Assembly: GCA_016214845.1 (NCBI GenBank)
Contig: JACRMS010000021.1
Coordinates: forward strand, 62,001-126,000
Direction of reading: 5' to 3'
DNA from: Nitrospirota bacterium
GTDB lineage: Bacteria > Nitrospirota > Thermodesulfovibrionia > UBA6902
DNA length: 64,000 nucleotides
How positions within the stretch are numbered: the first letter of the stretch is position 1; every line of letters starts with the position of its first letter. Of this stretch, positions 503 through 37,047 are shown piece after piece. The notes beneath the pieces are model-generated. The model searched no databases and was not told where the DNA came from. It worked only from the letters and a program-made list of their open reading frames with translations. The position numbers were made by a program, and so were the translations under genes.

Positions 503-2140
503 TCAATCTATATACCCCAAGCCTTTTAATTCATCCATTATTTGTCTCTCATCTTCAGCAGTATAAATCTTCTCTTCTTTTTCCTCGGTTTCATCGGATG
601 TTGAATCTGAAAATACAAGTGGATTAGATTCAAAAAATCTATCTTCAAATATGGATTGGATTACCTTACCATCCATATTTGATGGAACAGGTAATCCCAT
701 TAGATACAAAATAGTCGGCGCCACATCGGTTATGTTTATATTACCAATTCTTAATCCCTTTTTGATAGTCTCTTTATCATAAGCAATAAAAATGCCGTCT
801 TGATGGTGGTATCCGTCTGATGTATTGACCTTGACTAAACACTCTTTGCTGAGAGACGCTGGCAATGATATTAATGATTGATAAAGCACGTAGCCCTCTG
901 CAGGAGAAAGAACCAAGTCAGGCGCATCTTTAAGAAACGGGCCGCTATAGATTTGTTCCGAAAAGAATACATCATCCACAATCTGCTTCCCGCTTTCTTC
1001 ATCTCTCAAGGATAATAGCTTACTCCTCAATTCAATTCTCAACCGGTTATATGCCTCGCCTTTTTCAACAATGCCTCCCACATCCCTCCCTTTCAGATTT
1101 ATATGTATTCCATAAGAGGAGGAATTAGGCGTGTATGCCTGAGTCTTTTGCAAATTAAGAAAATTTGCCACTTGAACCACTTCAGTAGGCAGTCCCTCAA
1201 AATACTTATTATTCTCAACTCCCATTTTCTCCCTGATTTTGGCAGTAACAAGCCTTTTCATATTTTTTACAAGAAACCCGTTCTTCCCAAGCCAAACATT
1301 AATATAAAAATATTTCTTTTTAGAGCAAAAACCATGGTCGGAAAGTATAATAAGTGACGTGTCATCATTCATATTGTTTAATATGTCGCCTAAGATATCA
1401 TCAATCTGGCTATAACATCTCAAGACATATTCATAAATTTCTTCTGAGATGAAATCGGTCTCTTCACTATCCAGATATTTCCACAACACATGCTGAACTT
1501 TATCAAAACACATGAATAAAACATACAAGAAGTCCCACTCTTTCTCCCTGCTTAAATACTTGAATGCTTTGTATCTCAACTCAGTGGCTTTCAGCACTTT
1601 ATCAATAAATGTTTTTATCTCTTCTTTAGTATAATTACGCCATTTCTTTGCTTCAGGGACCTTAACGTTAAAGATATATTCCCCCGTCTCTCTCAAAATC
1701 TCGGCATACAACTCGTGAGGATAGGTATAGCTTTTTGCATTCGCCGGAGAGATAAAACCGGAAATCATGAAACCGTTAACCTTCTCGGTGGGATAACTAA
1801 GGGGAAAATGGATTATGCCGACCTTTTTATCGTGTTCCCCGATTATATTCCATATCTTCTTTCCTCTTATCATTTTACTGTTGACTATTGTCATTTTTTT
1901 ATCCGCCCCCCTCACAACAAAGTCATAAGCTCCATGTTTGCCCGGATTTTTGCCTGTAGCAAAAGAACTCCACGCAGGGGCAGTAAGAGGAGGATATGTG
2001 GATTTTTGAATGCCTGATGCCCCATTGTCGATTATGCTTTTTAAATTTGGCATCATGCCCTTTTCCATCAGTGGTTGAAACAATGTGAAAGTAGCTCCGT
2101 CTAAGCCTACGACCATGACCTTTCTATTATTACCTTGCAT
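503..2140 (-). CDS. Alkaline-phosphatase-superfamily phosphodiesterase (type I PDE/nucleotide pyrophosphatase-like)
   Basis: 545 residues of the alkaline phosphatase superfamily (PF01663-type). Visible metal and nucleophile motifs are GLDGATF (Asp14), PPLTAPAWSSF (probable nucleophile Thr53), FDKVQHVLW and SDHGF, with a late histidine in GYHHQDG, so the two-metal site looks intact. No signal peptide is evident. It begins inside the last 11 bases of the flippase gene, so the two are translationally coupled; the same flippase-then-phosphatase order recurs at 25-27 kb. The substrate is unknown: a polyprenyl-phosphate or phospho-sugar intermediate, or transfer of a phospho-substituent to the glycan, are both possible. 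A shorter start at Met9 would still keep the first Asp. Confidence 0.85.
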   Translation of the reverse strand: MQGNNRKVMVVGLDGATFTLFQPLMEKGMMPNLKSIIDNGASGIQKSTYPPLTAPAWSSFATGKNPGKHGAYDFVVRGADKKMTIVNSKMIRGKKIWNIIGEHDKKVGIIHFPLSYPTEKVNGFMISGFISPANAKSYTYPHELYAEILRETGEYIFNVKVPEAKKWRNYTKEEIKTFIDKVLKATELRYKAFKYLSREKEWDFLYVLFMCFDKVQHVLWKYLDSEETDFISEEIYEYVLRCYSQIDDILGDILNNMNDDTSLIILSDHGFCSKKKYFYINVWLGKNGFLVKNMKRLVTAKIREKMGVENNKYFEGLPTEVVQVANFLNLQKTQAYTPNSSSYGIHINLKGRDVGGIVEKGEAYNRLRIELRSKLLSLRDEESGKQIVDDVFFSEQIYSGPFLKDAPDLVLSPAEGYVLYQSLISLPASLSKECLVKVNTSDGYHHQDGIFIAYDKETIKKGLRIGNINITDVAPTILYLMGLPVPSNMDGKVIQSIFEDRFFESNPLVFSDSTSDETEEKEEKIYTAEDERQIMDELKGLGYID

Positions 2141-3668
2141 GTAATAGACCTTCTTTGAAATGCACCATCTTTTGGTAGAACAACTTCAGAATATACTCGT
2201 CGTCTTCTTCCAATTTCAATACATATATAAAAAGAGAATATGAACCTGCAAAAAGCAATGAAAGGACCATCATCACAAGAAGGGAAATCTCCTGTATATT
2301 TTTCGACACAAAGAAAACCAGCAAAAAAGACAAGAGCCCGGCAGCGCACGGCTTCAAGAAGTTTAGCTTGAAAGGATGCATCTTCAGAACAAAATATACT
2401 TCGATCAATCTCAATATATTCACAAAGGCGATTGACGACCCCGTGGCGGCAGCGGCTCCGACAACACCATATCGTGGAATCAATAGATAGTTGAGAATAA
2501 CATTCATCGATAAAAAAACCAGGGAGTTAAAAAGGACAATCTTCGCCTTCCCTGTCATCATCAGCATATAGCCTACCGATCCCACTCCTGAATTTATAAG
2601 CTCGCCGGTTCCCAGAATTATTAATGCAGCAGCGCCAACGGCAAAGCCCTCTCCGAATATTTTCATAATCGATTCTGCAAACAGGACAAACAAAAGAAAA
2701 AGCGGAAAACTTAGAATAAAAGTCCACTTGGTCGTAGTCTTGAACAGATTTTCAAGCTTCGTTGTCTCACCCTTACTGTACGACTCGGATATCATGGGTG
2801 CGAAAATGGAGTTAAATGAAGTCATCGGCAGCAAAACCAGTATTGCAACCCTGACGACAGCCGAATATACTCCGACCTCAACCGGTGTCTTGAAGTATCC
2901 CAGCATCAAGGAATCAATGTAAAAGGTCACGACCCCCATAAGCTGTGTCAAAGACATAGGCAGCGAGAAAGCCATTAGCTCTTTTTTCTCATAAATGGGT
3001 ACCGGTAATCTTTTATACACAGGGAATATCTTAATCAAATAATAAAATGAGAATATAAAACCCGCCAGAATGGAAATTACGCTGGCTGCCAATATCCCGC
3101 CCAGTTTCAATCCTATCAGAAAAAGGACCACCATTGCTGTCAGTTTGATCATCGGTTGATAAAACTTTTGTATATATACCTGATATTTTATGACCTGGAA
3201 GGACTGTATGACCTTCAGCCAAAGCTCGCCAAGGGTAAGAAAAGGAAGCGATATAATCAAGATTTTAATTGCCAACCCCAGGCTTTTGTCATGGAAGAAC
3301 TGTTCAGCCATGTAGTCGGCGCAGAAAAAAATTATCAGCGTGAGCGCGAGGCTGAGGGAAAATGTTATCTTCGTGCCGAATACTATAGCGCCTTTCAGTC
3401 TCTGATTATCGTCTTTTCCTTTATAAAAGGCTACGAACCTCAACAAGCCTTCATTAAGCCCGGCACTCGAAAATATCTGAGCAATCCATGTAATGATATT
3501 GGCAAGATTGAAAACTCCAAATATTGAAGGGCCGACAGTCCTTGTCATAGCTATGCTTGTGACATATCCAAGTATATTAAAAACGATCTCCCCTATCCCG
3601 CTGATACCGGCATTCTTGGCGATTTTTGAAAGGTCTGAGTGATACGCTGATGCGGTTTCTTTATTCAT
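2130..3668 (-). CDS. Wzx-type oligosaccharide flippase (first copy)
   Basis: 512 residues, very hydrophobic, with about 12-14 membrane segments, typical of the polysaccharide-biosynthesis (Wzx/MATE-like) superfamily. The start has the family look: a short amphipathic lead, then IGEIVFNILGYVTSIAMTRT and a VGPSIFGVFNLA loop. The predicted role is moving undecaprenyl-diphosphate-linked oligosaccharide across the inner membrane. It overlaps the glycosyltransferase upstream by 8 bases and the phosphodiesterase downstream by 11. A second, clearly different flippase lies at 25.5-27.0 kb, so this locus may export two glycans. Confidence 0.9.
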   Translation of the reverse strand: MNKETASAYHSDLSKIAKNAGISGIGEIVFNILGYVTSIAMTRTVGPSIFGVFNLANIITWIAQIFSSAGLNEGLLRFVAFYKGKDDNQRLKGAIVFGTKITFSLSLALTLIIFFCADYMAEQFFHDKSLGLAIKILIISLPFLTLGELWLKVIQSFQVIKYQVYIQKFYQPMIKLTAMVVLFLIGLKLGGILAASVISILAGFIFSFYYLIKIFPVYKRLPVPIYEKKELMAFSLPMSLTQLMGVVTFYIDSLMLGYFKTPVEVGVYSAVVRVAILVLLPMTSFNSIFAPMISESYSKGETTKLENLFKTTTKWTFILSFPLFLLFVLFAESIMKIFGEGFAVGAAALIILGTGELINSGVGSVGYMLMMTGKAKIVLFNSLVFLSMNVILNYLLIPRYGVVGAAAATGSSIAFVNILRLIEVYFVLKMHPFKLNFLKPCAAGLLSFLLVFFVSKNIQEISLLVMMVLSLLFAGSYSLFIYVLKLEEDDEYILKLFYQKMVHFKEGLLHAR

Positions 3669-4599
3669 TTTTTAATAATATGTATTTCAAGCCTTCAAAG
3701 GACCCGATGAAAGAATCCGGGTTCAGGCTTGCAACGCTTTTTCCGGTATCCAGCATTATCTGTCCGACAATGCTCCAGTAATAGGCAAGCCAGTTTGTAA
3801 TCTTTCTGGGCATACTCTTTTTTACCAGCTTATGCATATGGATAAGATACAATTTGTTCAGCTCTCTTATATTCAAATGCGTCTCCTGCGAGTGCCTGTG
3901 AGTTGCCAATGCATACGGTGTTTGATAGAGCTTATATTCCCTTGACACCCTGTATGAAATCTCAATATCTGTACATCTGCTGAACGTCTCGTCAAACCGG
4001 AACTCTTGAAAAACTTTCCTGTAATAGCTGCATAACAATGTCGTCATTCCCTCAACCTCCACAATCTCCTTTGGGAATGGAACAAAAACATACCCCATCG
4101 AAGGCAAAAACCTGCTCCGGCCTTCTTCCGATATTCTTGTCATTAAGAACAATTTTCTGTACAGATTATGTGACTTCGACATGCCGTAATAATTATGAAC
4201 GGAACCCTGAACACCGCCTACATGCCGGTTTTTTTCAAGTTCATAGACTTCCAGCATCTTCTCGTGGCAGGTTTCATGCAGGATTACATCATCATCCTGA
4301 AAAAAAACTATTTCGCAGTTTGCATTATCAGCCCCAAAATTCCGTTGAATGTTAACCCCGGGCTTGCTGCGTAAATAAACGAGCTTGATCCTGTCATCAA
4401 CAATCCTCTTGCAATTTATTTGATTTTCCTCGCTTAAGCTGTCGGAGCTTGCGTCAACAATAATAAGTTCATCAGCCAGAACAGTCTGGCTTGCAATCGA
4501 ACTCACACTGTTTTGTAAGTCTATCGGTCTGTCTTTAGTGGGTATGATAACGGAAAACGTCATACTGACTATTTGATATAATAATTTAATTCCTGCCAT
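3661..4599 (-). CDS. Family 2 glycosyltransferase
   Basis: 312 residues with a GT-A fold N-terminus: FSVIIPTKDRP, then DELIIVDASSDS, and the metal-binding QDDDV that plays the DXD role. The C-terminal third is a GT2 accessory region without clear membrane spans. It probably adds one sugar of the repeat unit in the cytoplasm; donor and acceptor cannot be told. Two starts are possible, Met1 and Met13 (MTFSVIIPT), and neither has a good ribosome site. It sits 12 bases after the histidine phosphatase gene and overlaps the flippase gene by 8 bases, so it belongs to the same transcript as the heptose genes. Confidence 0.85.
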   Translation of the reverse strand: MAGIKLLYQIVSMTFSVIIPTKDRPIDLQNSVSSIASQTVLADELIIVDASSDSLSEENQINCKRIVDDRIKLVYLRSKPGVNIQRNFGADNANCEIVFFQDDDVILHETCHEKMLEVYELEKNRHVGGVQGSVHNYYGMSKSHNLYRKLFLMTRISEEGRSRFLPSMGYVFVPFPKEIVEVEGMTTLLCSYYRKVFQEFRFDETFSRCTDIEISYRVSREYKLYQTPYALATHRHSQETHLNIRELNKLYLIHMHKLVKKSMPRKITNWLAYYWSIVGQIMLDTGKSVASLNPDSFIGSFEGLKYILLKNE

Positions 4600-4611: not shown

Positions 4612-5190
4612 TCAAATATTCTTTGCCCCTGATAGTGTATCCAATGTTATCTCAAATACCGCCGCGTTTGGAACGTTGACAGTTTTATAAAGATTCAAAC
4701 TCTTTTTTGCATGCCAAAGAAGCAACACTCTGATTATCGCGACATGTGTGACTATTACAACGTTCCCGGTGCCTTCATTCCGGTGAATTATTTCGGCACC
4801 CTTAATGGCACGGTCAAGAAGCTCTTTTAGTGTCTCCCTTCCCGGCAATGTCAATTCCGCCGGCTTACTTTGCCATACTTGCCATTCTGTTAAGTATGAT
4901 GCGGCAACTTCATCTTCGGATAACCCCTCCCATGGCCCTAATTCCATCTCCCGGAAAGAATCTTCAAGTTGAACATTTATTTTAATAGTATCGGAAATAA
5001 TCTTCGCCGTCTGCACCGCCCTCTGAATCGGGCTTGAATACAATGCCCGAACTCTGTAAGATCGCAGCAGCCCGGCAACCTCTCGCGCCTGCCGAAGACC
5101 TCTTTCGATCAGATGCTCGGAGCTTTTGCCCGCATACACTTTATCAATATTTGACTGGATTTCCCCGTGCCTGACCATTAATAATTTCAT
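4612..5190 (-). CDS. Histidine phosphatase (phosphoglycerate-mutase-like), candidate heptose bisphosphate phosphatase
   Basis: 192 residues of the histidine phosphatase superfamily. The RHG motif is at residues 7-9 (MVRHGEIQSN), the second arginine region is LYSSPIQRAVQTA, the acid residue is in ELGPWEGLSEDE, and the second catalytic histidine is in VTHVAII. Known relatives dephosphorylate small phospho-metabolites. It is in one operon with gmhA, hddA and hddC homologues, which need a phosphatase for D-glycero-D-manno-heptose 1,7-bisphosphate. The usual GmhB is a HAD enzyme and none is encoded here. I infer that this protein fills that step; a role in another pathway is not excluded. Confidence 0.8.
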   Translation of the reverse strand: MKLLMVRHGEIQSNIDKVYAGKSSEHLIERGLRQAREVAGLLRSYRVRALYSSPIQRAVQTAKIISDTIKINVQLEDSFREMELGPWEGLSEDEVAASYLTEWQVWQSKPAELTLPGRETLKELLDRAIKGAEIIHRNEGTGNVVIVTHVAIIRVLLLWHAKKSLNLYKTVNVPNAAVFEITLDTLSGAKNI

Positions 5191-5231
5191 ATCTCTAACA
5201 AGGGGCTTGAAATACCCGACATTCTAAATAA

Positions 5232-5816
5232 CTATTCCGGGGCGGCGTTGCGCAACTGCAATTCCCTGCACAGATATTGCATTAACATGTGGACCACGAT
5301 CAGGTGCACATCCTCGACTTTTTGCATATCATTAATTGAAACAACAAAAGAGATGTCTGCAAGTGCAGCCAGTTTCCCGCCTTCAAAACCGGTTATTCCG
5401 ATGGCCTTTGCCCCTTGTTCCTTTGCGTATGAGATCGCAAGGAGCACATTCTTTGAATTGCCGCTGCCAGAAATGCCAATGACAATATCCCCCGGCTGCA
5501 AAAAGTTTTTGAGCTGCTCAATAAAAATTTGGTCATAGGAAAGGTCATTGGCATAAGCCAGAATGCTGGGCAGATTATCATTCAAACAAATGACCTTAAA
5601 TTTCTTCTGCAGTTCAAGGCAGGTCCCTTTATTTATGTCGCAAACAAAATGGGATGCAGTAGCTCCGCTGCCGCCATTTCCCATTATAAACACCTGCTTC
5701 CCGTTATCGTATGCTTGTAACAGTGTCTGAGCAATTTCTAAAAATTGTTCATGCGGGAAAGTATCTAATAACTCTTTTAATTGGCCCAGGTAATCAAGAC
5801 TTAATTTATTTTGCAT
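5232..5816 (-). CDS. gmhA: Sedoheptulose-7-phosphate isomerase (GmhA-like SIS protein)
   Basis: 194 residues, the normal length for GmhA. It has one SIS domain with GNGGSGATASHF at about residues 46-57 (sugar-phosphate loop), GDIVIGISGSGNSKN, and a C-terminal EDVHLIVVHML helix carrying the conserved catalytic Glu/His region. GmhA converts sedoheptulose 7-phosphate to D-glycero-D-manno-heptose 7-phosphate in the cytoplasm, the first step to both ADP- and GDP-heptoses. Here the neighbours hddA and hddC point to the GDP route. The loop reads SGATAS where many GmhA proteins have SAADAQ, so some divergence is present. Confidence 0.88.
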   Translation of the reverse strand: MQNKLSLDYLGQLKELLDTFPHEQFLEIAQTLLQAYDNGKQVFIMGNGGSGATASHFVCDINKGTCLELQKKFKVICLNDNLPSILAYANDLSYDQIFIEQLKNFLQPGDIVIGISGSGNSKNVLLAISYAKEQGAKAIGITGFEGGKLAALADISFVVSINDMQKVEDVHLIVVHMLMQYLCRELQLRNAAPE

Positions 5817-5834
5817 TTCCTCTCCGGCTTAAAT

Positions 5835-6824
5835 TTATTTTAAAGGATATCTTCGATAATTGAATATTATCCTGCTTCCGAAATGATCGAGTATAAAAGG
5901 CAGTTCCCTGTATTCTCTTAAAGCGTGCCTGACCTTATCCTGTTTATTTTTTGGGACATAAAGCAAAAGAAAACCGCCTCCTCCAGCTCCGCATATCTTA
6001 CCGCCAAAAGCGCCGGCCATCAAGGCTTTTTCATACATCTTATCTATTTCCGGATTTGAAATAGAGTCAACCAATGATTTCTTCATAAGCCAGTTCTCAT
6101 GGAGGATTCTTCCAACTTCATCAAATTCCCCCTCAAGAATACAATTGGTCGCTTCGCCGACATAATTTCTCATTTTCCTCAAAACTTCTCTTTTATTTTC
6201 CGTGTCCTTATTCTGTTTCTCAAGAATAACATTGGCATCTCTTGTTTTATTTGTGAAAAAAAGCAGCAAATTTGATCCGAATCTCAAAAAATTATTATTA
6301 AATACAGCAAGCTTAGTAACTGACACCCGTTCATCGGGATGGAACGTTATCGCGTTAAGCCCTCCATATGCTGCAATATATTGGTCCTGTTTGCCAATCG
6401 GTTTTTTGCAGATATCAATTTCAATCTCGCAGGCCTCTCTGGCAAGTTGTTCCGCCGTCACCTGTACCCCGTTGAAATGATATAAAGCATTTAATAACCC
6501 CACCGTGACACTGCTTGAAGACCCAAGTCCGGAACCTTCTGAAGGTATATCAGCAAGAGTAGTTATCTCAACCCCGTTTACAACCCCGGCTTTTTTCATT
6601 GCTTCTCTGACCAAGTCATGTTTTATTTCCGATACTTCATCAACCCTTTCACTCAGCCTATAATTAACGTATATTTTTTCATCAAATCTTTCAGTAACTA
6701 TTATGTAAACGTATTTGTCAATAGCTGTACTGAGAACCATGCCGTCTTCCGCCTGATAAAATGATCTTAAATCCGTTCCGCCTCCAACAAAAGAAATTCT
6801 CAACGGTGTTTGTGAAATGATCAT
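5835..6824 (-). CDS. hddA: D-glycero-alpha-D-manno-heptose 7-phosphate kinase (HddA-like GHMP kinase)
   Basis: 329 residues of the GHMP kinase family. Motifs are MIISQTPLRISFVGGGTDL at the N-terminus, the ATP loop EGSGLGSSSS at residues 96-105, and the C-terminal GGKICGAGGGGFLLLY. The opening and length match HddA, which phosphorylates C1 of the heptose 7-phosphate with alpha stereochemistry before the phosphatase and guanylyltransferase steps. It lies 18 bases after hddC's side of the operon's next gene gap and directly before gmhA in transcription. L-fucose kinase-like relatives share the fold, but the gmhA and nucleotidyltransferase neighbours favour the heptose assignment. Confidence 0.88.
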   Translation of the reverse strand: MIISQTPLRISFVGGGTDLRSFYQAEDGMVLSTAIDKYVYIIVTERFDEKIYVNYRLSERVDEVSEIKHDLVREAMKKAGVVNGVEITTLADIPSEGSGLGSSSSVTVGLLNALYHFNGVQVTAEQLAREACEIEIDICKKPIGKQDQYIAAYGGLNAITFHPDERVSVTKLAVFNNNFLRFGSNLLLFFTNKTRDANVILEKQNKDTENKREVLRKMRNYVGEATNCILEGEFDEVGRILHENWLMKKSLVDSISNPEIDKMYEKALMAGAFGGKICGAGGGGFLLLYVPKNKQDKVRHALREYRELPFILDHFGSRIIFNYRRYPLK

Positions 6825-6871
6825 TTGTTATCCTCCTGATTGACCAAAAGCAATTTTTATTATTTTATTCT

Positions 6872-7585
6872 TTATTCAATCAGTTTTTTAAATATATTAT
6901 TTTTTAAATCCTTATCAGCCTGAGTTAATTTTTCAAAGGTCCCTATATCAAGCAGATAATCTTCCATAATATATCCAGATGATTTCCCAACAATGCACGG
7001 AAGCACATCATAACCAAGGTCGAATACATCCTTGTCCGGGAAAAAATCTATCAACCTCGGATTACTCAGCATAATTCCTGCAAATGCCAAATCTGAAACA
7101 GGGTTTTCAGGTTTTTCTGTAAACGAGATAACAGTTGAATTCTCGTCCATTTCAACTATTCCGCACTCCCTGGGATTTGGTACCCTGACAACAGCTAACG
7201 TAAAATCTTTTTTGTTTTTATTATGGAATAAAAGCATTCTTTCCAGATTTATATTGGTAAGGTTGTCTGCATAAAAGATAAAGAATGCCTTTTCTTCTTT
7301 TACAAAATCCCAGTTTTTTTTTATCGTCCCGCCGCTTCCAAGAAGATTTTCTTCATGCGCCAATTTTATTTTGAGCCCGCTTGAATTATTGTTTACGTAA
7401 CTTCTCACATTCCCGGCAAGGTGTGAGGTATTAATGAGAACCTCATTTATTCCATATATCTTAAAAAGATCAAACCAGTACTCTATCAACGGACGTCCAC
7501 AAACAGGGATAAGACATTTCGGTGTTTGCAGCGTCAACGGTTCTAAACGCGTTCCTTTCCCGGCGGCAAGTAGAAAAGCCTTCAT
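6872..7585 (-). CDS. hddC: D-glycero-alpha-D-manno-heptose 1-phosphate guanylyltransferase (HddC-like)
   Basis: 237 residues, a single nucleotidyltransferase domain. The N-terminal signature is LLAAGKGTRLEPLT followed by PKCLIPV, with a later FYADNLTN metal site and FTEKPENP. It would join GTP and heptose 1-phosphate to give the GDP-heptose donor. Sequence alone cannot fix the base or sugar, because the same fold serves mannose- and glucose-1-phosphate; the call rests on the adjacent gmhA and hddA. The start overlaps the stop of the upstream epimerase gene by four bases (ATGA). Confidence 0.82.
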   Translation of the reverse strand: MKAFLLAAGKGTRLEPLTLQTPKCLIPVCGRPLIEYWFDLFKIYGINEVLINTSHLAGNVRSYVNNNSSGLKIKLAHEENLLGSGGTIKKNWDFVKEEKAFFIFYADNLTNINLERMLLFHNKNKKDFTLAVVRVPNPRECGIVEMDENSTVISFTEKPENPVSDLAFAGIMLSNPRLIDFFPDKDVFDLGYDVLPCIVGKSSGYIMEDYLLDIGTFEKLTQADKDLKNNIFKKLIE

Positions 7586-8694
7586 TCCTTTATGGTTCTT
7601 ACAACACCTTTGTTCTTCATTGTCTTTTCTGCGTAATCCAGAATATCTTCGATATCGGTCTGGCGGTTGAGATATTGCCAGTATTCTTCTATACTGCGTT
7701 CAATGGGAACCTTAGGCGTCCAGCCTAAGGATCTAAGCTTGGTTATGTCCGAAAATATATTTCTTGTGTCACCGTAGCGATAGTGTTTTAAAATGACCGG
7801 CTCTATTTGTCTTCCTGTCACCTGCTGCATCTTTTCATAGAAATCCAAAACCGTATATGGCACTCCCCCGCCGACATTGAATCCCTGATAGTCAGCTCTG
7901 CCATCTTTTAGCACCAGCATGTTGGCATCAATAACGTCCTGATAATTTATGTAGTCTCTGATCTGCCTGCCATCCTCGTAAATGGTAGGCTGTTTATCAA
8001 AATAAAGATGAAGAGCAAAAATCCTCATCGCGCCGGAATAGGCATTATAGAAAGACTGCCTCGGGCCTTGCACAATGGAGTAACGAAGTGCTACCGAGGG
8101 GATCCCGTATCTTTTCCCTAAATTAATGGAAATTATTTCCTGTGAATGTTTTGACATGGCATACTGATTTTGAGGATTGACCATGTGCTCGGGCGTTGGC
8201 AGATACTGCATATACTTGTTACAATGTGGACAGTGATGTTCCCAATCGCCCATTGATAACTGTTCTTCAAGACGAATATCCGGGGTCAACTCTCCATGCT
8301 CCTGGCACCGGTATAAACCTTCCCCCAGGACCGCCTGTGAAGACGCAACTATGACTTTTTTGACAGGGAGTTTGTTCTCGACAATAATTTCATAAATGAG
8401 CGCCGTGCTTACACTGTTTACGTGGAAATATGTGCTGAAGTCGGGAAGATAATCCTGATATGCCGCAAGGTGGTAAATTGCGTCAATTCCTCTCATTGCT
8501 TTCTCAAGAGCCTCCTTGTCCCTGACGTCGCCCATTACAAATTCCGCCTTTGGGTTAATGTAGTCTGGTTTGCCTTTCAAATGCACCGGTTTTTGCAAGT
8601 TATCAAGTATCCTTACATCGCAGCCTTCCGCGATCAGCCTGTCTGCTGTATGCGAGCCTATGAAGCCTGCACCGCCTGTTATAAGAACCTTCAC
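7582..8694 (-). CDS. NAD-dependent sugar epimerase/dehydratase with a Cys/His-rich insert
   Basis: 370 residues, extended short-chain dehydrogenase fold: nucleotide loop VLITGGAGFIGSHT and catalytic Tyr178-x3-Lys182 (QYAMSK). Between the active-site strand and that tyrosine lies an insert of about 40 residues with Cys130, His133, Cys155 and Cys158 (RCQEHG ... HCPHC), a likely zinc knuckle. From memory, this arrangement occurs in SDRs annotated as dTDP-L-rhamnose 4-epimerases; that name is not secure here. The gene leads the heptose block, so it may act on the GDP-heptose or on another nucleotide sugar such as a 4-epimer. It is followed by hddC with a 4-base overlap. Confidence 0.85.
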   Translation of the reverse strand: MKVLITGGAGFIGSHTADRLIAEGCDVRILDNLQKPVHLKGKPDYINPKAEFVMGDVRDKEALEKAMRGIDAIYHLAAYQDYLPDFSTYFHVNSVSTALIYEIIVENKLPVKKVIVASSQAVLGEGLYRCQEHGELTPDIRLEEQLSMGDWEHHCPHCNKYMQYLPTPEHMVNPQNQYAMSKHSQEIISINLGKRYGIPSVALRYSIVQGPRQSFYNAYSGAMRIFALHLYFDKQPTIYEDGRQIRDYINYQDVIDANMLVLKDGRADYQGFNVGGGVPYTVLDFYEKMQQVTGRQIEPVILKHYRYGDTRNIFSDITKLRSLGWTPKVPIERSIEEYWQYLNRQTDIEDILDYAEKTMKNKGVVRTIKE

Positions 8695-35246: not shown

Positions 35247-36371
35247 TTAAGGCGCTGCCGCTAAGTATTCATCGGAATAATAACCCTCAATATCTTGCAC
35301 AAGCTTTTCGGGTAAAAGATTGTCCAAATAATATTTCCGGGCGTTATTCTGAATTTCGTGAATATTTTTATTTTCAATAACTGATTTAATTCTTTCGACT
35401 AATGAATCAACATCGCCCGCCTTAAATAGAAAGCCGTTCCAGTTATCCTTTATTAATTCCTTATTCCCGCTGATATCACTGGCAATGACCGGTTTACCGA
35501 TGGCAAAATATTCAACCAGGACAAGAGGCGTTCCCTCTGAAATTGACGAGATCAAAAAAAAGTCTGATATAGCCCAGATTTCTTCCAACTGTTCATAATA
35601 GTTCAAATACCTAATGTATTCTTTATCGAAATCATTTTCTTTAAACACGGTGGGGTCACTCATCGGCCCGACAATCAGCAAATTCACTTTTATTGCATCT
35701 TGATTAATCTTACCGACCGCATCGAGGGCAAGACGGTGGCCTTTAAGTCTATCAATCCTTCCAATAATTGTTAAAACGGGTTTATCATTGGTTATGCCGA
35801 GTTTTTGCTTAATCACTTCTTTATTGTACATCAATAAGTTTTTTTCAGAAATGTCTTTGATTATCGGGTAGACCAATTTGAATTTCCGTCCGGGATTATC
35901 TATTTTCTTAACCAGAGAAATTTCTTTCTCCAAAACTACATTTGAAATGGCTATATTGATTCTGGCCCGGCTGAATATTCTGGACTCCAGAAACAGGTCC
36001 CACTTTTTTTTCCATTTTCCAAGACCATAGTTTGAAGTGAAAAGAGGTATTTTAGTCAGAATTGAAAGAAAGTATGCATACCGGTACAGCCAGTAATTGT
36101 GCCCGTGTATAATGTTAATGCGATTTTTTTTACAAAAATAATAGCCGACTGGCAGGCAGTAGAAATATCGTTTAGGAGTACATTTTAATGTGATAATCTT
36201 TATAGGCAGCTTATGGAACAGCTCTTTGAGGGGACCCTCATCTTGAGTGACAAAAATATAGTGATCAAATCTGCTAAAATCAGCATTATTGAAAAAATTC
36301 AGAAGATTCGACTCCATGCCCCCTACAAAAAATGAATTAAAGATGTGCAGGATTTTTATTTTCTCACTCAC
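35247..36371 (-). CDS. Family 4 glycosyltransferase
   Basis: 374 residues, GT-B. N-terminus ILHIFNSFFVGGMESNLLNF with the G-G-x-E motif; C-terminal KPVLTIIGRIDRLKGHRLAL and FFLISSISEGTPLVLVEYFAIGKPVIAS carrying E-x7-E. It closes with a low-complexity tail. Overlaps the nucleotidyltransferase gene by 8 bases. Adds one sugar to the repeat unit; donor unknown. Confidence 0.9.
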   Translation of the reverse strand: MSEKIKILHIFNSFFVGGMESNLLNFFNNADFSRFDHYIFVTQDEGPLKELFHKLPIKIITLKCTPKRYFYCLPVGYYFCKKNRINIIHGHNYWLYRYAYFLSILTKIPLFTSNYGLGKWKKKWDLFLESRIFSRARINIAISNVVLEKEISLVKKIDNPGRKFKLVYPIIKDISEKNLLMYNKEVIKQKLGITNDKPVLTIIGRIDRLKGHRLALDAVGKINQDAIKVNLLIVGPMSDPTVFKENDFDKEYIRYLNYYEQLEEIWAISDFFLISSISEGTPLVLVEYFAIGKPVIASDISGNKELIKDNWNGFLFKAGDVDSLVERIKSVIENKNIHEIQNNARKYYLDNLLPEKLVQDIEGYYSDEYLAAAP

Positions 36372-37047
36372 CAGCCATTTTCTCCAACACTTGCTTATAG
36401 TCTTCTTCCCGGCCTATATCGTACCACTCTCCCCCAAACTTGTAGACATTGATTGGTTCCTTTAAAGAAATAAGCTTCTTGATTAATGTTGGAAAATCAA
36501 AATATTGCTTCTGGGGAATATTGCCAACAATGCCCCTGTTAATAACATAAATGCCCATGCTTACATAAAAGCTGTACGTAGGCTTTTCAATATAATCCCG
36601 GACATCACTGCCATGCAATTCAAGCACGCCTAAAGAGATAGGCACTTCTTTTTTATAGGAGCATATCGTGACCCTCTTTCCCGACTTCTTATGATTCCCT
36701 ATCAAATCAGTAAATCTTAAATCTGTTAATACATCACCGTTTGTTACGATAAATTCTTCTTCTAAATTCTTTATGAGTGCCAGGCATCCTACGGTGCCAA
36801 GGGGTTCTGTTTCAATAAAGTATTTGATCTCAACTCCGAATCTCTCGCCGTTTCCGAAATAAGCCTGAATAATGCCGGCCAAGTAACCAACAGATATTAT
36901 GATTTTCTTGACGCCACCTTCAACCAGTTTATTAATTATAATTTCGAGTATCGGTTTTTCGCCGATAGGCATCATAGGTTTCGGTAAGATTGTCGTATAA
37001 GGCCTGAGCCTGGTGCCTTTGCCGCCGGCTAATATAACTGCCTGCAT
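36364..37047 (-). CDS. Sugar-1-phosphate nucleotidyltransferase
   Basis: 227 residues, single nucleotidyltransferase domain: VILAGGKGTRLRPYTTILPKP, then GTVGCLALIKNLEEEF and VTNGDVLTDL with the metal Asp. Lacks the long C-terminal beta-helix of mannose-1-phosphate guanylyltransferases. The closest kind I recognise is the PtmE/RmlA-like nucleotidyl transferase used for GDP- or CDP-sugars in nonulosonate and deoxy-sugar loci. It is 10 bases downstream of a LegB-like dehydratase gene, so the two likely act on one sugar. Confidence 0.85.
   Translation of the reverse strand: MQAVILAGGKGTRLRPYTTILPKPMMPIGEKPILEIIINKLVEGGVKKIIISVGYLAGIIQAYFGNGERFGVEIKYFIETEPLGTVGCLALIKNLEEEFIVTNGDVLTDLRFTDLIGNHKKSGKRVTICSYKKEVPISLGVLELHGSDVRDYIEKPTYSFYVSMGIYVINRGIVGNIPQKQYFDFPTLIKKLISLKEPINVYKFGGEWYDIGREEDYKQVLEKMAGE

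Follow-up and report, generated by a model that had tools for sequence, protein, structure and literature searches.

In Campylobacter jejuni, the GmhB phosphatase serving the GDP-heptose route (Cj1152) is encoded within the lipopolysaccharide (LPS) heptose cluster and not within the capsule cluster, as described in excerpts of PMC10680097, and because the LPS-cluster enzyme is borrowed in this manner, the lack of gmhB from a GDP-heptose operon can be regarded as ordinary. Moreover, excerpts of a second study indicate that GmhB enzymes differ in anomer preference, favoring the alpha anomer in Bacteroides thetaiotaomicron and the beta anomer in Escherichia coli and Helicobacter pylori, a difference that would offer a rationale for keeping, alongside the LPS enzyme, a second phosphatase dedicated to the alpha anomer (PMC8204981). 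Here we describe an operon of the GDP-heptose type in a Nitrospirota bacterium (GCA_016214845.1), located in a 64,000-nucleotide stretch of contig 21 of the genome (JACRMS010000021.1, positions 62,001-126,000; referred to in its entirety as the window), in which a histidine phosphatase, HisP, most likely takes the place of GmhB at the operon level, though not in the cell.

A first-pass annotation of this DNA had placed four genes, homologues of gmhA, hddA, and hddC together with the histidine phosphatase, at positions 4612-7585, and its coordinates proved exact, with all four genes lying on the minus strand in a tight operon. The order on this strand is SDR, HddC, HddA, GmhA, HisP, glycosyltransferase, and flippase (Table 1), and because the gaps from the SDR gene through the glycosyltransferase gene amount to -4, 47, 18, 41, and 12 base pairs, a single transcription unit is likely. 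The gmhA, hddA, and hddC homologues, borne out at the family level, together make up the gene set of a GDP-heptose biosynthetic operon. Specifically, the best NCBIfam model for HddA is HddA itself (NF049969) and the solved structures closest to it (4usm, 3k85, 4n3o, and 4usk; E 3e-40 to 7e-39) belong to heptose kinases or putative sugar kinases, the nearest solved structures for GmhA are phosphoheptose isomerases, and the top NCBIfam match of HddC is mannose-1-phosphate guanylyltransferase (139 bits against a cut-off of 440). As the first-pass annotation had also held, no GmhB-type HAD protein was found in the window using TIGR00213, TIGR01656, and a GmhB profile built for this analysis, genome matches to the two published models being confined to contigs 19, 18, and 29. 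The operon is without exactly one of the four pathway activities, and HisP is the sole candidate for it among the ten neighboring genes scanned.

We favor, with moderate confidence and on the strength of sequence comparison, the explanation that HisP is an operon-dedicated heptose-1,7-bisphosphate 7-phosphatase, one that would correspond, without homology, to the GmhB domain fused to HddC in related operons. According to this scheme, in which the substrate and regiospecificity of HisP, its preference for the alpha anomer, and the identity of the nucleotide are predicted, GmhA would yield heptose 7-phosphate, HddA would phosphorylate C1, HisP would remove the C7 phosphate of heptose 1alpha,7-bisphosphate with H8 as the transient phosphohistidine, and the addition of GMP by HddC would then provide GDP-heptose for the surface polysaccharide that the cluster assembles.

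The protein itself has the characteristics of a branch-1 histidine phosphatase. The only Pfam family matched by HisP is PF00300 (155 bits against a cut-off of 21.7), which places it in branch 1 of the histidine phosphatase superfamily; in the same scan it is not a member of the HAD-IIIA family, that of GmhB. Residues R7, H8, and G9, as well as R57, E81, and H149, are invariant in the HisP alignment (A3) and nearly universal in 27 sequences outside the HisP clade; from the superfamily residue list, we take R7, H8, R57, E81, and H149 to be catalytic (RHG motif, second Arg, Glu, and second His). In fold, an AlphaFold model of HisP (pLDDT 94) comes closest to the phosphoserine phosphatase of H. 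thermophilus, with PhoE and CobC also near, at TM by query of about 0.85-0.91 and 21-28% identity, and this search with a predicted structure confirms the superfamily only. Only two PF00300 matches exist in the whole genome, and GmhA is paired with HisP in other phyla as well, so that HisP is no chance neighbor.

Evidence for this recurrence was obtained by scanning a species-genome collection with a seven-sequence GmhA alignment free of HisP information, from which the best 80 of 442 loci were kept. HisP is found in the gene run of GmhA in 10 of the 80 (L160, L161, L162, L164, L167, L168, L179, L190, L198, and L217, with L160 and L162 apparently being contigs of genomes G176 and G140, respectively), in the orders HddC-HddA-GmhA-HisP, HisP-HddC-GmhA, and HddA-HddC-GmhA-HisP. 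A HAD domain fused to HddC lies within the run in 15 loci, and farther off in the flank in two more, while no HAD was found in the flank of any of the 10 HisP loci. In a tree of GmhA (79 rows including the window, with 2 over-long frames omitted), all 11 HisP rows, that of the window included, fall in a 50-row group devoid of HAD, and all 15 HAD rows fall outside it (branch support 99/94). This pattern resembles a single displacement with numerous later losses, repeated gain being the alternative. The survey also brought to light a Syntrophomonas metagenome-assembled genome in which one frame adjoining HddA matches GmhA, HAD (GmhB), and HddC profiles and is apparently a triple fusion (L239:6215-8110). 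In a Desulfobacterales locus, the remaining genes of the operon run were inspected for a third phosphatase and turned out to be NusG, DNA polymerase III delta', PSP1, and Met-tRNA ligase neighbors.

Approached from the side of the phosphatase, a profile of ten HisP sequences was applied to 395 genomes sampled from the phylum to which genome G304 belongs, and the best 14 matches beyond G304 and G303 were taken. Four matches score 235-290 bits, the next among the matches listed scoring 158. Two of the four, G304 and G303, were already known; a third, G309, found by the HisP profile alone, carries SDR-HddA-HddC-HisP (L300) with GmhA on another contig (L170), and the fourth, G690, lies on a 4.5-kilobase contig without a heptose gene. 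Neither GmhA nor HddA was found near any of the 12 next-best HisP relatives examined. In a tree of 43 rows (L025 and L026, copies of L160 and L162, omitted; L042 and L044, copies of the window and L162, kept), the heptose-linked HisPs form a single group along with the uninformative G690 and the two duplicate rows (support 100/98). R118 is present in 13/13 members of this clade and in 0/27 outsiders, which carry Gly, Ala, or Cys at this position, and the clade further possesses a conserved LN-Y motif at the C-terminus. Our guess is that R118 may be a ligand for the second phosphate. One of the surveyed HisPs, that of L190 (3131-3691), has an in-frame TGA directly behind the RH of the RHG motif and a split hddA alongside, in a 1.2-Mb Lithacetigena metagenome-assembled genome, due to either sequence error or decay.

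A broader proposition, which we advance tentatively and at a little below an even chance, is that the HisP clade, inherited mostly vertically, provides the GDP-heptose operons of Nitrospirota, Desulfobacterota, and other groups with an alpha-specific heptose-1,7-bisphosphate 7-phosphatase, which would make it a non-homologous isofunctional enzyme not described before. On the GmhA tree, it would have displaced the operonic HAD GmhB a single time and would have been lost repeatedly where an LPS GmhB can substitute.

The replacement does not extend to the genome as a whole. One clear GmhB-like domain is present, as far as sequence can tell, in the C-terminal part of a 511-residue protein on contig 19 (L003:1408-2943), scoring 107.5 bits with TIGR01656 (above the cut-off of 84.15) and 102 bits with TIGR00213 (below the cut-off of 149.6); the N-terminal part of this protein is heptosyltransferase II (WaaF; 241.6 bits, cut-off 134.6). 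On this sequence evidence, the idea that GmhB is absent from the genome was rejected. The NCBIfam anomer models give its HAD domain 119.7 bits for beta (cut-off 178) and 72.4 bits for alpha (cut-off 250), both under cut-off. The same genome contains an HldE-type kinase domain over cut-off and a second GmhA. HldE domain II (the adenylyltransferase, TIGR02199) was not found in this genome and is present in 24 of the 31 family genomes searched (this one counted), so that its absence here is probably an assembly gap. An ADP-heptose/LPS route is likely present. This separate ADP-beta-heptose/LPS route probably has the WaaF-GmhB fusion as its phosphatase, and the fusion may additionally act as a backup. 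Throughout a phylum sample, TIGR00213 matches occur in 260 of 295 genomes, many among the matches listed being in frames of 500-640 residues, a size like that of the WaaF-GmhB fusion.

What remains of the idea that a histidine phosphatase replaces GmhB is, then, a recurrent and specific operon partner that fits the sole step without an enzyme, GmhB not being missing from the genome. On its own, the missing operonic gmhB appears a weak premise; the operon-level, clade-specific version of the claim is well supported by the sequence comparisons, and the genome-level version fails. The operon is real and ordinary-looking, with an unusual and specific phosphatase.

Close relatives of the operon illustrate both the strength and the limits of the association. 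The HddA search listed 89 matches, 82 at E <= 3.4e-57, and loci were taken for 80 of these plus the genome itself and G140, 7 weaker matches being left out. HddA relatives of 71-74% identity occur in five other genomes of the family. HisP, at 60-61% identity, lies directly after GmhA in G140 and G176, and in the latter the GmhA-HisP pair is intact although kilobases from HddC-HddA on the same contig. The SDR has a 76% identical neighbor in G140 and also adjoins HddC in G162, G269, and G233, the contig of the last of these stopping about 180 base pairs past GmhA. Among the 80 HddA-like loci of the phylum (L050-L129), 65 have no GmhA within 7 kilobases, and most of the 65 do have an HddC-like gene close by, as if the kinase/nucleotidyltransferase pair made a different sugar; most of the 80 loci were accordingly not counted as GDP-heptose operons. 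In one of the 80 (L129:7001-8569, genome G134), a single 522-residue frame matches the profiles of HddA and GmhA alike and is apparently a kinase-isomerase fusion.

Several observations weigh against the assignment of HisP as the 7-phosphatase of the operon. Firstly, GmhA, HddA, and HddC all score under their NCBIfam equivalog cut-offs (122/209, 179/600, and 93/300 bits, respectively), and because these are strict equivalogs, the sugar and the nucleotide in "GDP-heptose" are to be read at the family level only. Secondly, 53 of the 80 GmhA loci have neither phosphatase in the flank, some contigs ending early, and simple counts give no significance to the mutual exclusion between HisP and HAD (p 0.11 for 15 HAD loci, 0.08 for 17); it follows ancestry. 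Thirdly, SDR-HddC-HddA-GmhA is conserved at about 70% identity in G162 and G269, where genes for a glycosyltransferase and a flippase come next and HisP is lacking; a member of the HisP clade was not found elsewhere in these two genomes either (best 36% at 1.5e-19; none at 1e-15), and each has only one TIGR00213 match, so that HisP appears dispensable there. Fourthly, genomes were checked for GmhB at 50 of the 80 loci, namely all 10 with HisP, 36 whose run contains neither phosphatase (among them L233, with HAD 8 kilobases away), and 4 with an operonic HAD. TIGR00213 matches were found in 8/10, 31/36, and 4/4 of these genomes, respectively, and the idea that HisP tracks genome-wide loss of GmhB was rejected (8/10 versus 31/36, Fisher p 0.64). 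G299 (L167) and G302 (L190), the HisP genomes in which no such match was found, were set aside as support, since completeness was not given and L190 has frame defects. Lastly, the beta preference of H. pylori GmhB is only about 3-fold (10.38 versus 3.57 per mM per s; excerpts of PMC8204981), and one GmhB could consequently serve both routes.

According to the foremost rival explanation, which we judge unlikely without being negligible, the WaaF-fused GmhB would serve both the ADP- and GDP-heptose routes, and HisP would be auxiliary, clearing a side product or tuning flux (e.g., sedoheptulose 7-phosphate or heptose 1-phosphate). The GmhB-like domain in the genome, the use of Cj1152 by C. jejuni GDP-heptose clusters without gmhB, the operons kept without HisP in G162 and G269, and the room left by the modest H. 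pylori preference are all consistent with such sharing, which nevertheless leaves unexplained why a single HisP clade tracks operons across phyla and gene orders and why HAD and HisP lie on separate GmhA lineages. The histidine phosphatase superfamily is promiscuous, and the cluster in the window contains many further sugar genes; an improbable second alternative is, then, that HisP acts on another phosphate of the cluster, such as an SDR, aminotransferase, or glycosyltransferase intermediate, and not on heptose bisphosphate. Against this stand L190, L198, and L217, where HisP lies directly with GmhA or HddC despite differing other neighbors, and the GmhA-HisP pair of G176, which stays together though kilobases from HddA. 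That HisP is a CobC-type alpha-ribazole phosphatase present by chance is suggested by its best NCBIfam match, TIGR03162 (CobC, 119.8 bits), but is very improbable, since this score lies below the cut-off of 162.9, two other clade members likewise fall short (133 and 122 bits), and the clade follows heptose genes.

Table 1. Genes of the heptose operon and its neighbors in the window (positions in window coordinates).
Feature	Position	Strand	Evidence and remarks
HisP, histidine phosphatase (branch 1), 192 residues	4612..5190	-	PF00300 155 bits; proposed heptose-1,7-bisphosphate 7-phosphatase
GmhA-like sedoheptulose-7-phosphate isomerase (SIS)	5232..5816	-	TIGR00441 122 bits, cut-off 209
HddA-like GHMP kinase (heptose-7-phosphate 1-kinase)	5835..6824	-	NF049969 179 bits, cut-off 600
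HddC-like sugar-1-phosphate guanylyltransferase	6872..7585	-	PF00483 123 bits; NF052502 139 and NF049965 93, both under cut-off
SDR sugar-nucleotide epimerase/dehydratase	7582..8694	-	PF01370 130 bits; travels with HddC-HddA-GmhA
Family 2 glycosyltransferase	3661..4599	-	PF00535 60 bits; spacing, 12 base pairs after HisP
Polysaccharide flippase (Wzx-like)	2130..3668	-	PF01943 93 bits

Nearby, the gene at 503-2140 encodes a type I phosphodiesterase. A second HddC-like nucleotidyltransferase lies in the same polysaccharide region of the window (36364-37047), adjoining two SDR-like genes.

If HisP is the operon's 7-phosphatase, the third step in the synthesis of nucleotide heptoses has a solution other than GmhB, and GDP-heptose pathways would be miscalled as incomplete by annotation relying upon HAD proteins only. 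The locus likewise lets one ask, on a concrete example, whether a cell keeps two unrelated phosphatases because of anomer specificity, alpha being used for GDP and beta for ADP.

Among titles and abstract openings of the open-licence PMC literature, no paper was found that is apparently concerned with a histidine phosphatase at the GmhB step; the one paper with both "histidine phosphatase" and "heptose," PMC6429109, has the two terms in unrelated places. A precedent for a histidine-family phosphatase in a biosynthetic route exists, judging from an entry title, in riboflavin synthesis (PDB 9mmh). PmrG, the lipopolysaccharide core heptose(II)-phosphate phosphatase, resembles HisP in being a histidine phosphatase relative with, by name, a heptose-phosphate substrate, but the match is very weak (17.7 bits against a cut-off of 170), and by name PmrG acts on LPS and not on a soluble bisphosphate. 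Phosphoserine phosphatase 1, PhoE, and CobC share the fold and catalytic residues of HisP, which differs from them in forming its own clade with R118 and the LN-Y motif. The C. jejuni GDP-heptose pathway (GmhA, HddA, GmhB, and HddC) employs the same types of isomerase, kinase, and guanylyltransferase and likewise has gmhB outside the cluster, but in the excerpts of PMC10680097 a histidine phosphatase is not named for the phosphatase step. Finally, HisP and the HAD-IIIA enzyme GmhB are alike in their proposed reaction and in their place within related operons, where GmhB is fused to HddC, but are unrelated in fold and chemistry, HisP being a branch-1 histidine phosphatase.

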